Part shown: piece by piece, positions 3 through 22,088 of the stretch
Layout of the letters: every line of letters starts with the position of its first letter
How positions within the stretch are numbered: position 1 is the stretch's first letter
From: Bacillota bacterium
GTDB lineage: Bacteria > Bacillota > Sulfobacillia > Sulfobacillales > Sulfobacillaceae
Direction: 5' to 3'
DNA length: 44,519 bases
Assembly: GCA_021795465.1 (NCBI GenBank)
Contig: JAJYPK010000009.1
Location: forward strand, 1-44,519
Notes under the pieces: generated by a model
Told to the model about the DNA's origin: nothing
Databases searched by the model: none
The model's input: the letters and a program-made list of their open reading frames with translations, nothing else
Program-made: the position numbers and the translations under genes

Positions 3-272
3 ATTTATGCGGCCAGCTTGGACGGGGTTCGCCGCAAACTGGTCTGTCCCGATCCCGTGATTAATCAGGATGCGTATGCCCTAACCGATGCGGTTTTGCT
101 ACCACGAACGCTTCATGAAGCACTCCAGGCGTTAAATCAGGATGAGGTGTTGGTAGAAATGCTGGGGGCGTCTTTTGTGGAAAGTTACACAGCCATTAAA
201 ACGGCCGAGTTGAATCGCTATGAAGATCATGTGAGTGACTGGGAAGTAAAGGAATATCGAGAACTCTTTTAA
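3..272 (+). CDS. Glutamine synthetase-type enzyme, C-terminal end (5' truncated)
   Basis: Only the last ~89 codons are in the window; the frame is open to the left edge. The residues match the C-terminus of the glutamine synthetase superfamily: an AASLDGVRRKL segment, a conserved P-x-P, an LP-x-TLHEALQAL helix, and the terminal VSDWEVKEYRELF end. The family ligates ammonia or an amine to the gamma-carboxyl of glutamate using ATP. The C-terminus alone cannot separate true GlnA from gamma-glutamyl-amine ligases (PuuA, IpuC type). The neighbouring APC permease and glutamine amidotransferase make the second possibility attractive, but this is inference. The next gene starts 17 bases downstream, so it is probably the first visible gene of an operon running to 2625. 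Confidence 0.85.
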   Translation: MYAASLDGVRRKLVCPDPVINQDAYALTDAVLLPRTLHEALQALNQDEVLVEMLGASFVESYTAIKTAELNRYEDHVSDWEVKEYRELF

Positions 273-289
273 AGGTGAGGAGGATTGCC

Positions 290-691
290 ATGAGTCTTGT
301 CGATGGGGTCGCGGAAAGTGAGGCCAAAGGTGTCGTCAAGGAGATCTATGACGCGATGAAAAGCGCCCGGGGGTGGGACCAAGTCCCCCTGATTTGGCGT
401 GCTATGGCACATAAGCCGGACTATCTTAAAGCTAACTGGGAGCGTTATCAGGCCATCATGATGGGAGGCGCCTTAGAACCGAAAGTTAAGGAAATGATTG
501 CCTTGTCGGTCAGTATGGTCAACCGGTGTAGTTACTGAATTGACAGCCATTCTTTCGCGTTGCGAAAGATGGGAATGTCCGATGAAGAACTCGTCGAGTT
601 GGTATCAGTAATTGACTTTTTCTCCGGGACCAACGTGTTCACCTCGGGGTTAAAGTTGGAGTTTGAAAAGCCAGGTAACGAGGAGGAATGA
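290..691 (+). CDS. AhpD/carboxymuconolactone decarboxylase-like selenoprotein (CxxU), UGA recoded at 536-538
   Basis: The frame from ATG 290 (ribosome site GTGAGGAGG just upstream) meets TGA at 536-538, then continues uninterrupted to a TGA at 689-691, giving 133 residues if the internal UGA is read. The AhpD family active site is EX11CXXCX3H, a thiol relay that reduces peroxides or disulfides. Here Glu, 11 residues, Cys (527-529), Ser, Tyr, TGA, three residues and His fit this exactly, with TGA replacing the second Cys. The residues after the TGA (ALRKMGMSDEEL and onward) are typical of the family, so the stop is not the gene end. A SECIS-like hairpin follows at 547-572. The last codons overlap the ribosome site of the next gene, as in a normal operon. 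The alternative is a recent nonsense mutation of TGT/TGC or a sequencing error. SelA, SelB, SelC and SelD are not in the window. Confidence 0.82.
547..572 (+). promoter_or_regulatory. Candidate bacterial SECIS element for UGA recoding
   Basis: Eight bases after the in-frame TGA (536-538) the mRNA can form an 11-bp hairpin. CCAT (547-550) pairs with ATGG (569-572), T551 is bulged, and CTTTCGC (552-558) pairs with GCGAAAG (562-568) around the loop GTT (559-561). The apical loop begins with G and lies 20 bases from the UGA. As I know them, bacterial SECIS elements are placed in this way: directly downstream, with a G at the start of the loop and, in E. coli fdhF, a bulged U needed for SelB binding. 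The pairing is read directly; SelB recognition is inference. Confidence 0.72.
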
Positions 692-2689: not shown

Positions 2690-3373
2690 CTAAGGCATTA
2701 AGAGGCTTACGCCAACGGGAAGCCGTGTAATGGTGTGCGCAGACGGAAAAATCGTGTCAAAGATAAAATGATCCGGGCTATGCAGACTGGTCGCGGCCAA
2801 GTGGACGGTCCCCACCGAGAACGTATAGAGAAAATTCTCCGGGTTGCCCGCGTAGACGGCCAATCTTCCCTCCGTATCCAGAGCCATTAGATTGGCCTTT
2901 CCCTCTAAGAGGCGATGGGTTTCTTTTAGACTTTCCTCAAGGGAAAGCCCTTGGGACAGTTGGTCGCGGCATAACAGAAAGCCAACCTCGCTGTCAGAGG
3001 TTCCTTGCAATTCCGACTGATACGCGGCCACGTATTCTCGGTATCGGGCAAAATATCCGTTATGAGCAAAGGCCCATCGTGCGTCCGGGGATTGGTATGG
3101 TTGCGCATTGAGGTGGCCAATGGTCGACATGCGACTGGGTCGACGGAGATGAATAAATCCTCGGGTCAGGAGCAGGCCCCGAAGGGCATCCTCTGCCGTG
3201 GGGTCTTGGCGGATGCCAAGGACGGATCGATAACGGAAGAGGCGGTTCCCATCGGTCCAGGTGATGCCCCAACCGAAGCTGGCCAGTCCATATTGATCCA
3301 AAAGGCGACTCCAGTTCAATACATCCTGGATTTCAACCGGGTTGCCCGAGGTAATCGCTAGCATTTCACACAC
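2690..3373 (-). CDS. Class II (Ntn-type) glutamine amidotransferase-like protein, YafJ/EgtC type
   Basis: A 227-residue protein beginning M-C-E-M-L, so Cys2 becomes the N-terminal nucleophile after Met removal, the hallmark of class II glutamine amidotransferases. The GWG strand, the RPSRMSTIGHLNAQP region, the WAFAHNGYF segment and the TSDSEV motif correspond to the conserved glutamine-binding parts of this fold. Stand-alone members such as EgtC hydrolyse gamma-glutamyl amides rather than feeding a synthase. Beside a glutamine synthetase-type ligase and an amine permease, a role in removing a gamma-glutamyl group is plausible but inferred. Start is GTG 3373 with AGAGGGGA upstream. It is convergent with the permease and divergent from the IclR gene. 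Confidence 0.75.
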   Translation of the reverse strand: MCEMLAITSGNPVEIQDVLNWSRLLDQYGLASFGWGITWTDGNRLFRYRSVLGIRQDPTAEDALRGLLLTRGFIHLRRPSRMSTIGHLNAQPYQSPDARWAFAHNGYFARYREYVAAYQSELQGTSDSEVGFLLCRDQLSQGLSLEESLKETHRLLEGKANLMALDTEGRLAVYAGNPENFLYTFSVGTVHLAATSLHSPDHFIFDTIFPSAHTITRLPVGVSLLMP

Positions 3374-3664: not shown

Positions 3665-4402
3665 ATGAGAATTGTTCAAGACGTCGAGAAGCATGGATCT
3701 TCCGTTAAAGGGTTGGAACGTGGACTAGACGTACTCGATTATCTCTTTACGGTACCCGAGGCGCCGTTGCATGCGATTGCCGAAAAAACCGGCATTCCCC
3801 CGTCTACGGTACATCGTTTGTTATCGTCGCTAGAGTTCAAGGGTTATGTAGTCGCCCGACAAGGCGTGTACCAGTTAGGGATCAAGGGGCTTTGGTTTAC
3901 CTTGGCGCGAGAGCCTATCCGTAAGATTTTGGAAGAAGTCTCGGACAGGGTAGGAGAAACCGCGAATTTTGCCATTTTGGTACAACGCGAGATGGAATTC
4001 ATTGAGCGATCGGTGTCGGATCATCCATTGGCGTTCGTGGTTTCGGTGGGGTCCCGGGTGCCGTTGTATTGTAGCGCTCTGGGAAAAGCGGTTTTGGCGA
4101 ATCGTTCGGATCTTTTGGAAGGATTGACGCTGACATCGCATCGAGGATCCGGTGCAATCGACCCGATCGAATTCCATGCCGAGCTGGAAGTGGCTCATCA
4201 GCGGGGTTTTGCGTTCGATAATCAAGAGTTCGTTGAAGGCGTGTTTTGTATTGCGGTTCCCGTGTTTGGACGCATGGGAATGGCCGTGGGAGCGGTGTCT
4301 GTCTCAGGACCGGTCGTGCGGTTTTCCCGAGATAAGGCCATACAAATTGCGCCTTATCTGAAGACGGTGGGCGAGCAAGTGACCCAATTGCTGCAGAACT
4401 AA
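3665..4402 (+). CDS. IclR-family transcriptional regulator
   Basis: A 245-residue protein with an N-terminal winged helix-turn-helix (about residues 15-75; LHAIAEKTGIPPSTVHRLL is the HTH), followed by the GAF-like IclR effector domain with the typical SRVPLYCSALGKAVLA segment and a GVFCIAVPVFG segment near the end. IclR proteins sense small organic acids and control catabolic operons. It starts at ATG 3665 behind GAGGACG and is the first gene of a tight operon (gaps of 16, -11, 3 and 14 bases) with two cupins, an aminotransferase and an SDR, so it most likely controls that pathway. The ligand cannot be told from the sequence. Confidence 0.9.
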   Translation: MRIVQDVEKHGSSVKGLERGLDVLDYLFTVPEAPLHAIAEKTGIPPSTVHRLLSSLEFKGYVVARQGVYQLGIKGLWFTLAREPIRKILEEVSDRVGETANFAILVQREMEFIERSVSDHPLAFVVSVGSRVPLYCSALGKAVLANRSDLLEGLTLTSHRGSGAIDPIEFHAELEVAHQRGFAFDNQEFVEGVFCIAVPVFGRMGMAVGAVSVSGPVVRFSRDKAIQIAPYLKTVGEQVTQLLQN

Positions 4403-4418: not shown

Positions 4419-4862
4419 ATGGCAGAGGAAAATGCTGGGGGATATTTTAAGGGGCCGGCTTCGCGGGTGGTCGAGGTATCTGACGAGCAATTACCGCAGT
4501 TTCTACAAATCGATCAGTTGCCGATCAATATGGTTAGTGCGGGTGTGGGGTTAAAACCCGTATTCGGATCGAACCTGATGCTCTCGTTTGTGTATATGAA
4601 GCCGCATTCGGAGGCGTCGCTGCACGCGCATCCGGAAGAGCAAATTGGCTTGGTACTCGAAGGGGAGTATGAATTTGAGTTAAATGGCGTCCGGAAGATG
4701 ATCGGGAAAGGGGATGTCTATATCGTGCCACCCAATGTTCCACATGGTGCCTACACCTACGAGAAATCTTGTGTGGCGCTCGACATCTTTGCACCCCCGA
4801 GGACGGGTTATAAAGAAATGATTGCGGCAGCGAGAAAGGTGATGCAATTCGATGGCGAATAG
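4419..4862 (+). CDS. Small single-domain cupin protein (first of two in the operon)
   Basis: A 147-residue cupin. Motif 1 reads H-A-H-P-E-E-Q followed by GLVLEGEYEFELNG, giving two His and a Glu as metal ligands; motif 2 reads GDVYIVPPNVPHGAY and supplies the third His. Such proteins act as isomerases, dioxygenases or ligand-binding proteins with a bound divalent metal. Its last 11 bases overlap the aminotransferase start. The second cupin of the operon (6576-6980) has the same metal motif and the same D-x-FxPPR-x-G-x ending, so the two are probable paralogues that may form one two-cupin enzyme. Substrate unknown. Confidence 0.82.
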   Translation: MAEENAGGYFKGPASRVVEVSDEQLPQFLQIDQLPINMVSAGVGLKPVFGSNLMLSFVYMKPHSEASLHAHPEEQIGLVLEGEYEFELNGVRKMIGKGDVYIVPPNVPHGAYTYEKSCVALDIFAPPRTGYKEMIAAARKVMQFDGE

Positions 4863-5817
4863 CGGATCGGGGCCGACGGCCCGACAAGAAATTGACCAAG
4901 GCGTGGTTTTCTTTCGTGACCAACTACGGCCCTTTAGTGAAGCCAACGTAAGCATCGCGACCCATGCCCTCAATTATGGGACGGGATGCTTTGAAGGAAT
5001 TCGAGCGTACTGGAATGCGGATCACGAGGAACTCTATATCCTCAAAGGGAGAGAGCACTACGAGAGATTTTTGCGATCCGCCCGCATCTTAAAGATTCAA
5101 GTACCCTATGACGTGGATGGGTTGATGCATTGGACCCGAGCGATGTTGGCCGCCAACGAATATCGGCAAGATGTGTATATCCGTCCTCTCGCCTTTAAAG
5201 GGGCTGCCATGATTAAGGTGACGCTGTCGGGAGTACGCGATGACCTAGGCATATTTGCGGCCCCGATGGGTGATTACGTGAGGACGGAAGGGCTAAGGGC
5301 CACCGTTTCGAGTTGGGTCCGCATTGCGGACAACATCATTCCTTCGCGAGCCAAAGTGACGGGGGCGTATATCAACGCGGCCTTAGCCAATGACGATGCC
5401 ACACAAGATGGGTACGATGAGGCCATCATGTTGTCTCAAGATGGACAAGTGGCCGAAGCTAGTTCGTCCAACCTATTTATTGTCCGCCAGGGTGAACTCA
5501 TTACGACCCCCGTGACGTCAGATATCCTGGAAGGGATTACCCGCAACGTGGTATTTCAAATGGCTAAGCATCGCGGGTATTCCTACATTGAACGTCCAAT
5601 TGATCGCACGGAGCTCTATGTGGCCGATGAAGTGTTCTTGTGTGGAACCGGGGTGCAACTGGCTGGGGTGACAGAAATCGATCACCGCCCGGTTGGTACC
5701 GGAGTTATGGGTCCGATTACGAAGGACTTGCAACAACTGTACTTCGGTGCGGTACGCGGTCAGGACCCGACTTATAAAGATTGGCTCACACCGGTGTATG
5801 GGAAGGGAGGCACCTAA
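4852..5817 (+). CDS. Branched-chain-type (class IV, IlvE-like) aminotransferase
   Basis: A 321-residue PLP enzyme of fold type IV. The N-terminal HALNYGTGCFEGIRAY segment, the Schiff-base lysine (K168 in SRAKVTGAYINAALA), the VAEASSSNLFIV motif, the TSDILEGITRNVV phosphate-binding segment and the DEVFLCGT segment all match IlvE. The C-terminal end is also IlvE-like, so the enzyme is full length. It transfers the amino group between 2-oxoglutarate and branched-chain or related amino acids. Its place among cupins and an SDR under an IclR regulator suggests a dedicated pathway rather than general valine/leucine synthesis. It overlaps the preceding cupin gene by 11 bases, so the two are translationally coupled. 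Confidence 0.85.
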   Translation: MANSGSGPTARQEIDQGVVFFRDQLRPFSEANVSIATHALNYGTGCFEGIRAYWNADHEELYILKGREHYERFLRSARILKIQVPYDVDGLMHWTRAMLAANEYRQDVYIRPLAFKGAAMIKVTLSGVRDDLGIFAAPMGDYVRTEGLRATVSSWVRIADNIIPSRAKVTGAYINAALANDDATQDGYDEAIMLSQDGQVAEASSSNLFIVRQGELITTPVTSDILEGITRNVVFQMAKHRGYSYIERPIDRTELYVADEVFLCGTGVQLAGVTEIDHRPVGTGVMGPITKDLQQLYFGAVRGQDPTYKDWLTPVYGKGGT

Positions 5818-5820
5818 GCC

Positions 5821-6561
5821 ATGGATCTCGGATTAACTAACGAAGTCGCGATTGTGACCGGGGGGTCTCGTGGTATTGGTCGCGCCATCGTGAACACCCT
5901 GCTCGAAGAAGGAGTCAAAGTTGCGACGGGGTGTCGCCATCCCGAAGACGTCAAAGATTGGCCCAATCGGCCCGAACAACTGATGATAAATGCGTTGGAC
6001 GTGACCAAACCGGAGAGTATTGAGGCATTCGTGGACGAAGTGACGCAGCGGTGGGGCACGATTGACATGCTTGTCAATAACGCTGGGAAGGCTTATCCAG
6101 GGTCGTTTGCTGACTTGTCCGACGAAGCCTGGCAGAGTGATATCAATGTCAAACTCTTGGCACAGGTGCGGATGACACGGAGTGTGCTCAAGAACATGGC
6201 GCCAGGGGGGCGCGTCGTCAACCTGTCGGCCGTCTTCGGCAAAGAACCAGACCCAAGGTTTTTCGCTTCGAGTGTGAATCGGGCGTCATGCACGTCGTTT
6301 ACCAAGACACTGGCGAAGGAAGTCGCGGCACGTGGGATTCGTGTCAATGCGGTGAGTATTGGGTTTGTGTATTCGGGCCAATGGGAAGGGCGCCCAGACG
6401 CATACTTCGCGGACATGGTCGAACGATTTGGTGTGCCGCTTAAACGGTTTGGGCGCCCGGAGGAAGCTTCTGCGGCTGTCGCGTTTTTGCTATCGCATCC
6501 AGCATCGTACTTGACAGGGGTGGTCCTGGATGTCGACGGTGGCATGGCTAAATACTTATAA
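5821..6561 (+). CDS. SDR-family protein lacking the YxxxK catalytic pair
   Basis: A 246-residue Rossmann-fold protein with the SDR cofactor motif TGGSRGIG (about residues 13-20), the NNAG motif, a conserved Asn in the INVKLL helix and a typical C-terminal LTGVVLDVDGG. Ser136 (NLSA) is where the catalytic Ser belongs. The position of the catalytic Tyr is Ser150 and that of the Lys is Arg154, and residues 137-165 contain no Tyr at all. NAD(P) binding is therefore likely, but ordinary carbonyl/alcohol oxidoreduction is doubtful; it may do a different reaction or have a structural role. Start ATG 5821 follows GGGAGG, three bases after the aminotransferase stop. Confidence 0.85.
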   Translation: MDLGLTNEVAIVTGGSRGIGRAIVNTLLEEGVKVATGCRHPEDVKDWPNRPEQLMINALDVTKPESIEAFVDEVTQRWGTIDMLVNNAGKAYPGSFADLSDEAWQSDINVKLLAQVRMTRSVLKNMAPGGRVVNLSAVFGKEPDPRFFASSVNRASCTSFTKTLAKEVAARGIRVNAVSIGFVYSGQWEGRPDAYFADMVERFGVPLKRFGRPEEASAAVAFLLSHPASYLTGVVLDVDGGMAKYL

Positions 6562-6575
6562 GGAGGCGCGCTTTC

Positions 6576-6980
6576 ATGACCATTGACCGGAGCTATTTTA
6601 AGGATCATACCGTATGGGATGGGACCTATCCCTATCCTCCCGAGTTCAAACACATGCCAGACCTTGCCGGACTAGAAGCCGCACCGGGTGTCCTATTGCG
6701 GCCGTTTTGGGGAGAGCGCCTCATGGCCAGTTATGTCACGTTCGCGCCGGACTCGATCGCCCCTCTTCATCAGCACGACCAAGAACAACTCAGTCTGGTG
6801 CTAAAGGGGCGTCTCTTCTTTACCGTGGGTGATCAATCGCAATGGATGGATGTCGGGGATGTCGTATCGATTCCACCTGGGGTACCCCATTCGGCCACCG
6901 CGGGACCAGACGGAGCGCTTGCGGTGGACATGTTTTCCCCACCCCGAGAAGGATTTCAGCGAGCATCAGACTCTAAGTGA
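6576..6980 (+). CDS. Small single-domain cupin protein (second of two in the operon)
   Basis: A 134-residue cupin with motif 1 H-Q-H-D-Q-E-Q followed by LSLVLKGRLFF and motif 2 GDVVSIPPGVPHSA, so the full three-His/one-Glu metal site is present. It starts at ATG 6576 behind AAGGAGG and is the last gene of the IclR operon. Both cupins share the pattern of an N-terminal strand ahead of a GV-x-LRP/KP segment, the double-stranded beta-helix, and a FSPPREGF or FAPPRTGY tail. It probably acts on the same or a sequential substrate as its paralogue at 4419-4862. Confidence 0.82.
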   Translation: MTIDRSYFKDHTVWDGTYPYPPEFKHMPDLAGLEAAPGVLLRPFWGERLMASYVTFAPDSIAPLHQHDQEQLSLVLKGRLFFTVGDQSQWMDVGDVVSIPPGVPHSATAGPDGALAVDMFSPPREGFQRASDSK

Positions 6981-21730: not shown

Positions 21731-21808
21731 GGTGGATGTAGCTCAGCTGGTTAGAGCACCAGGTTGTGGCCCTGGGGGTCGGGGGTTCAAGTCCCCTCAT
21801 TCACCCCA
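21731..21808 (+). tRNA. tRNA-His (GTG), with encoded CCA
   Basis: The cloverleaf is complete: acceptor GTGGATG pairs with CATTCAC, the D arm has GCTCAGCTGGTTAGAGC, the anticodon loop reads TTGTGGC with anticodon GTG, and the T arm contains GGTTCAAGTCC. An extra G at 21731 opposite C73 is the tRNA-His identity element. CCA is encoded at 21806-21808. Confidence 0.97.
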
Positions 21809-21844
21809 AATTTCACCCCCGGGATAACCGGGATTTTTTCTCTC

Positions 21845-21920
21845 GCGCCCGTAGCTCAGTGGATAGAGTGACGGACTTCGAATCCGCAGGTCGTAGGTTC
21901 GAATCCTACCGGGCGCACCA
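21845..21920 (+). tRNA. tRNA-Arg (TCG), with encoded CCA
   Basis: Acceptor GCGCCCG pairs with CGGGCGC. The D arm has GCTCAGTGGATAGAGT, the anticodon loop reads CTTCGAA (anticodon TCG, reading CGA), and the T arm is GTAGGTTCGAATCCTAC. It ends A-CCA. Confidence 0.97.
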
Positions 21921-21923
21921 TTC

Positions 21924-22007
21924 GCGAGGGTGATGGAATGGCAGACATGCGAGACTTAGGATCTCGTGCCGTAAGGCGTAAGGGTTCAAGTCCCTTCCCT
22001 CGCACCA
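21924..22007 (+). tRNA. tRNA-Leu (TAG), with encoded CCA
   Basis: Acceptor GCGAGGG pairs with CCCTCGC. The anticodon loop reads CTTAGGA (anticodon TAG, reading CUA), and a long variable arm (TGCCGTAAGGCG) marks it as a class II tRNA. The T arm GGTTCAAGTCC and terminal A-CCA are present. It starts four bases after tRNA-Arg. Confidence 0.97.
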
Positions 22008-22013
22008 TCATAC

Positions 22014-22088
22014 GCGGAAGTAGCTCAGTGGTAGAGCATCGCCTTGCCAAGGCGAGGGTCGCGGGTTCAAATCCCGTCTTCCGCTCCA
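22014..22088 (+). tRNA. tRNA-Gly (GCC), with encoded CCA
   Basis: Acceptor GCGGAAG pairs with CTTCCGC. The D arm has GCTCAGTGGTAGAGC, the anticodon loop reads TTGCCAA (anticodon GCC), and the T arm is GCGGGTTCAAATCCCGT. It ends T-CCA. It is the last of the four clustered tRNAs, and a terminator follows immediately. Confidence 0.97.

Follow-up and report, generated by a model that had tools for sequence, protein, structure and literature searches.

The gene at positions 290-691 of the window (the whole stretch of 44,519 nucleotides that was analyzed) carries an in-frame TGA at the second position of a CxxC-type active site. The locus raises the questions of whether this TGA is translated as selenocysteine (Sec), acts as a stop or is an error, and of what the product might do among the genes that surround it.

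The gene and its product

The features of the gene are listed below by their positions in the window.

277-284, forward strand: Shine-Dalgarno-like GAGGAGGA, ahead of the ATG at 290, read directly from the sequence
290-691, forward strand: predicted AhpD/CMD-fold selenoprotein gene (133 residues, Sec at residue 83, stop TGA at 689-691)
536-538, forward strand: in-frame TGA, predicted Sec codon for the second position of C-x-x-U, where four orthologs have a Cys codon
542-579, forward strand: predicted SECIS hairpin (GUU loop 559-561 on an apical stem formed by 551-558 and 562-569; distance to the UGA, 20 nt)

Translation of 290-691 with TGA as U gave MSLVDG...SMVNRCSYUIDSHSFALRKMG...GNEEE, with a single internal TGA (536-538). 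The AhpD motif, which a preliminary description of this DNA had called complete apart from that TGA, was confirmed on the translation as E68-x11-C80-S-Y-U83-x3-H87, and these four positions were invariant in all eight Sulfobacillaceae sequences and present in the other orthologs too. The product matched PF02627 with 65.5 bits (cut-off, 23) over residues 43-122, spanning the TGA, and TIGR00778 (AhpD core) with 61 bits (cut-off, 27.8); both scores exceeded the curated cut-offs and place the protein in the CMD/AhpD superfamily. Against the peroxidase-related subfamily TIGR01926 it scored 68 bits versus a cut-off of 81.8, and is related to that subfamily without belonging to it. Because all curated NCBIfam cut-offs were missed except that of the generic AhpD core, no named selenoprotein model covers this protein.

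Orthologs with TGA or Cys

Orthologs were searched for in 61 genomes, and named genomes were scanned in addition. Matches were found in seven genomes besides that of the window, of which six keep the TGA at this position and G025 has TGC, and the identity of these relatives to the window protein was about 66-75%. The TGA orthologs, seven including the window, came from five genera of one family, and near-complete assemblies were among their carriers (G016, 2 contigs; G029, 3 contigs). A Cys codon was found in four orthologs (G025, TGC; DX2.bin20, TGC; Alicyclobacillus mengziensis, TGT; Clostridiales PH28_bin88, TGC), and the same redox-active position is thus encoded by an in-frame UGA in seven genes and by TGC or TGT in four homologs. 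The alignment of orthologs, which the preliminary description had proposed as a check, gave TGA or Cys at codon 536-538 and a C-terminal tail common to all, the Cys frames being open to the same tail, and none of the TGA and Cys orthologs compared ended at the TGA. The C-x-x-U motif was also present in more distant Bacillota relatives (L071, L073, L087, L088 and L089), whose genomes have selA and tRNA-Sec.

Downstream of the TGA, nonsynonymous differences amounted to 0.12-0.21 per site and synonymous differences to 0.47-0.98, the latter being near saturation in most comparisons, and the rates were much like those of the upstream part. The frame past the TGA is under purifying selection. Its continuation to the TGA at 689, as described earlier, was borne out by the profile match that crosses 536-538 and by conservation of the downstream frame in relatives.

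Since the window derives from a draft genome (252 contigs, 3.58 Mb, completeness 100) and some close relatives encode Cys at the corresponding position, the TGA might be an assembly error or a recent nonsense mutation in a Cys gene. The occurrence of the same TGA in six other assemblies, including G016 and G029, makes a sequencing error untenable, and with the selection on the frame past the TGA and the Sec-specific hairpin with frozen codons described below, an artefact or pseudogene lesion is scarcely credible. Translation by the standard code gives merely an 87-aa ORF (275-538), as the preliminary description had expected of gene calling, and on that basis the TGA could be a functional stop that yields an 82-residue N-terminal product and leaves the downstream frame incidental. 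Such a product would be without the second position of the active site, His87 and roughly half of the CMD domain, whereas conservation is equally strong on both sides of the TGA and the Cys orthologs translate straight through the codon; termination at this TGA is thus extremely improbable.

In the phylogenetic tree, in which many other forks were unsupported, the Cys gene of G025 was nested inside the Sec clade (support, 91/88), and this position is consistent with a Sec-to-Cys change in G025.

SECIS hairpin

The hairpin 3' of the TGA has the core sequence CUUUCGC-GUU-GCGAAAG and a z of -3.9 (-3.4 when a longer piece was folded). Published criteria for a bSECIS are a loop of 3-9 nt with G in its first two positions, a stem of 4-16 bp, a spacing of 16-37 nt and an MFE of -7.5 or below (PMC13188914). 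The window hairpin lies within all of these limits, with a 3-nt loop (GUU), an 8-bp stem, 20-nt spacing and an MFE of -18 kcal/mol.

Because these generic criteria are permissive, more weight was given to synonymous codon usage. In codons 87-93 of the seven TGA genes, pairs with the same amino acid shared the same codon in 88% of cases versus 44% elsewhere (70 codons), which was the highest value of any sliding window in the gene and was reached in 0 of 100,000 random draws. The hairpin itself occupies codons 88-93, which are nearly frozen at synonymous positions in the TGA genes. For the seven TGA genes the hairpin z values lay between -1.6 and -3.9, and for the Cys genes, all four of which have lost the hairpin, they were 0.05, 0.54, 0.70 and 2.16. 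The freezing of these codons in TGA genes, together with the loss of the hairpin in Cys genes, indicates that the RNA is constrained only where Sec is encoded. The stem varies little and compensatory changes are nearly absent because all seven Sec genes belong to a single family; one stem change, A to G in L010, keeps the pairing as a G-U wobble.

Selenocysteine machinery

The genome of the window was searched for selA, selB, selD and tRNA-Sec, as had been suggested, and all four were found. The tRNA-Sec (anticodon TCA) scored 71.9 bits, above the Rfam threshold, and family searches gave 549 bits for selA, 346 bits for selB and 352 bits for selD (L047, G000:C203). The selD gene itself contains an in-frame TGA (SG-U-GCK) followed by a strong downstream hairpin, and a gene for formate dehydrogenase alpha in the same genome (L117, G000:C217; 677 bits, above the cut-off) has TGA in the usual place (CNRT-U-HAPS). 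With tRNA-Sec, selA, selB, selD and two further TGA-containing selenoprotein genes, this genome looks like that of a working Sec user. The formate dehydrogenase match lacks the first 45 profile positions, and a piece matching positions 1-50 is located elsewhere on the contig.

Among the TGA-bearing Sulfobacillaceae genomes, selA was found in 7/7, and a full tRNA-Sec was not found in G005 and G021 (both TGA form with selA), which are fragmented, incomplete MAGs. A pattern of Sec and Cys that simply follows the presence of the machinery was rejected, because G025 has the Cys form yet keeps selA and tRNA-Sec; the loss of Sec in that genome was thus no forced consequence of losing the machinery. 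G025 has two distinct full tRNA-Sec genes, L092 and L094, both with the TCA anticodon.

On these sequence data, UGA 536-538 is almost certainly a genuine Sec codon, and the case for a selenoprotein is very strong, about as strong as sequence alone allows. That 290-691 encodes a selenoprotein with redox chemistry at CxxU, the reaction being left general, is highly probable. In translation, SelB would bind the hairpin at 542-579 and bring Sec-tRNA(Sec) to the UGA at 536-538.

Further tRNA-Sec-like matches in eight Sulfobacillaceae genomes were rejected as second tRNA-Sec genes, because analysis with ARAGORN gave them a GCA (Cys) anticodon; they are tRNA-Sec-shaped with a long variable arm (L093, L095, L097, L098, L099, L100, L101 and L103 in G025, G004, G007, G015, G022, G013, G017 and G005, respectively). 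They resemble the selC* tRNA-Cys of anaerobes (PMC7609411) and, as tRNA-Cys-like genes by anticodon, have no bearing on the 290-691 gene; no such GCA-anticodon match was found in the genome of the window at E <= 1e-9. Partial tRNA-Sec copies of roughly 54-71 nt were also observed (L116, G000:C175:9135-9188; G025:C43; G012:C111 and C219), and these are possibly attachment-site remnants of integrative elements at selC.

Predicted fold and active site

A structure model was generated by AlphaFold2 using 24 family sequences, and an earlier model from eight sequences (pLDDT 69) was set aside as too weak. The model (pLDDT 92.5) has the all-helical AhpD core fold, and its top PDB match, with Z 16.6 and 2.2 A over 130 residues at 35% identity, was the AhpD core protein 2OUW from Rhodospirillum rubrum (profile match, E 5.7e-28). 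The two proteins are alike in size, full-length fold and the CSYC-x3-H motif, and differ in that 2OUW has Cys where the window protein has Sec. Further fold matches were the debrominase Bmp8 (6OHI, Z 7.9) and gamma-carboxymuconolactone decarboxylase (2AF7, Z 7.8). M. tuberculosis AhpD (1GU9, Z 6.0) has the Glu-Cys-Cys-His relay motif in the same order and spacing, and differs from the window protein in being longer, in its catalytic Cys and in being the physiological partner of AhpC.

The proton relay of M. tuberculosis AhpD consists of Glu118, Cys130, His132, Cys133 and His137 (PMC3141380). By spacing, E68 was mapped to Glu118, C80 to Cys130, U83 to Cys133 and H87 to His137. Koshkin et al. 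in 2003 reportedly found Cys133 to be the catalytic nucleophile, with Cys130 as the resolving residue. As U83 maps to the attacking Cys133, Sec would replace the catalytic and not the resolving Cys, so that the earlier wording 'resolving/second Cys' is right for the second position of CxxC and wrong for the role. Sec has a lower pKa and stronger nucleophilicity than Cys and helps most at the attacking residue.

By analogy with M. tuberculosis AhpD, selenol redox chemistry at CxxU is likely. C80-S-Y-U83 would form the redox pair of an all-helical AhpD/CMD-fold enzyme, in which E68 and H87 may relay a proton from the U83 selenol. The U83 selenolate would then attack a substrate, which we guess to be a hydroperoxide or some other intermediate that is reducible or electrophilic. 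C80 would resolve the product to give a Se-S bond that is reopened by a cellular thiol reductant. The presence of AhpD-fold proteins with other activities (Bmp8 and the decarboxylase 2AF7) among the fold matches, and the location of the gene in a catabolic cluster, allow for reductive or isomerizing chemistry on a pathway intermediate, comparable to that of Bmp8, in place of peroxide reduction. The E-C-C/U-H relay motif of peroxidase-active AhpD is kept in full, however, 2OUW as the nearest structure carries no activity assignment, and such a departure from peroxide reduction seems unlikely.

Gene cluster and possible role

The genes of the cluster around 290-691 are as follows.

3-272, forward strand: glutamine-synthetase-like ligase (GS1), C-terminal 89 residues, 76% identical to GS1 of L052, the rest lying beyond the contig edge
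695-1003, forward strand: Dabb (stress-responsive A/B barrel), separated by 3 nt from the selenoprotein stop codon
1033-2625, forward strand: APC-superfamily amino acid/amine permease (ORF from GTG 1015; ATG 1033 behind a Shine-Dalgarno-like sequence)
2690-3373, reverse strand: class-II glutamine amidotransferase-like gene (GATase; PF13230), candidate gamma-glutamyl hydrolase
3665-4402, forward strand: IclR-family regulator
4419-4862, forward strand: cupin 1
4852-5817, forward strand: class-IV (branched-chain type) aminotransferase, above the NCBIfam cut-off
5821-6561, forward strand: short-chain dehydrogenase/reductase (SDR)
6576-6980, forward strand: cupin 2

The eight Sulfobacillaceae loci all have the end of GS1 11-30 nt before the AhpD-like gene and the APC permease downstream of it, and in all of them a class-II GATase-like gene follows on the opposite strand. 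The run IclR-cupin-(aminotransferase)-SDR-(cupin) was present in 7/8 loci and was not found in the stretch of L054 examined. Alicyclobacillus and DX2.bin20 have this set in a different order, GATase-GS1-IclR-cupin-aminotransferase-SDR-AhpD(Cys)-cupin. The preliminary description had noted the adjacency of the GS-type enzyme, Dabb protein and permease, and this stands; these genes are not mere neighbors, the AhpD-like gene being a conserved member of a larger cluster.

The most parsimonious guess for the pathway of this cluster is that an amine or amino acid is imported, gamma-glutamylated, and oxidized or transaminated, and that the GATase releases glutamate; the AhpD-like selenoenzyme would act within this gamma-glutamyl-amine/amino-acid catabolic cluster. 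It might instead be a general antioxidant (a thiol/selenol peroxidase), linked to the cluster only by co-regulation or stress protection: AhpD-fold proteins have been described as peroxidases and antioxidant adaptors (PMC3141380), the 'stress-responsive' Dabb gene lies between the AhpD-like gene and the permease in 6/8 Sulfobacillaceae loci (none was found in L067 and L068), and PH28_bin88 keeps the gene without the cluster. On the other side, in Alicyclobacillus and DX2.bin20 the gene remains grouped with the aminotransferase, SDR, cupin, GS and GATase genes despite its moved position, which points to a role in the pathway. A general antioxidant is a real possibility at somewhat less than an even chance, and a dedicated role of the AhpD-like enzyme in the pathway of the cluster is plausible, at about an even chance. 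A fuller proposal, offered tentatively and rather doubtful as a whole, is that the selenoenzyme serves as a dedicated catalyst, rather than as an antioxidant, in an undescribed pathway of gamma-glutamyl-amine catabolism in acidophilic Bacillota, with Sec and Cys versions of the same step exchanged between related species. The cluster showed no oxidase that would be an obvious source of peroxide.

Comparison with known selenoproteins and pathways

AhpD-like and CMD-like CxxU selenoproteins have been tabulated (PMC13188914, PMC9312934), which agrees with the earlier statement that such proteins are known and makes the term 'new-type' too strong. The tabulated proteins (TIGR01926, PF02627, NF041047 and NF041238) share the fold family and the Sec position with the window protein, and the genomic context of the window gene differs from theirs. 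What is new here is a subfamily without a curated model, its association with a particular catabolic cluster and a clean natural comparison of Sec and Cys, in that the same gene in the same cluster has either Sec with a SECIS or Cys without one. Such a pair would allow a direct test of the advantage that selenium gives at a single active site. As standard gene calling truncates the gene, one enzyme of the catabolic cluster will be missed wherever the Sec form occurs. In the library that was searched, no paper on selenoproteins of Sulfobacillus was found, and a literature search gave no description of this gene cluster.

The Puu putrescine pathway and the GlnA4 ethanolamine pathway of Streptomyces (PMC6529630) share with the window cluster a GS-like ligase, an amine-type permease and a candidate gamma-glutamyl hydrolase, whereas AhpD, Dabb, cupins, the class-IV aminotransferase and SDR are additions of the window cluster. 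GS1 and a further GS-like gene (GS2) resemble gamma-glutamylputrescine synthetase, scoring 312 and 469 bits, respectively, against a model whose cut-off of 650 neither reaches. GS2 lies beside an amidohydrolase gene near the cluster in several relatives (L052:3972-6449 and equivalents), and is on the opposite strand in L057, L058, L067 and L068. Elsewhere in the window, four tRNA genes (His, Arg, Leu and Gly) are clustered at 21732-22088.
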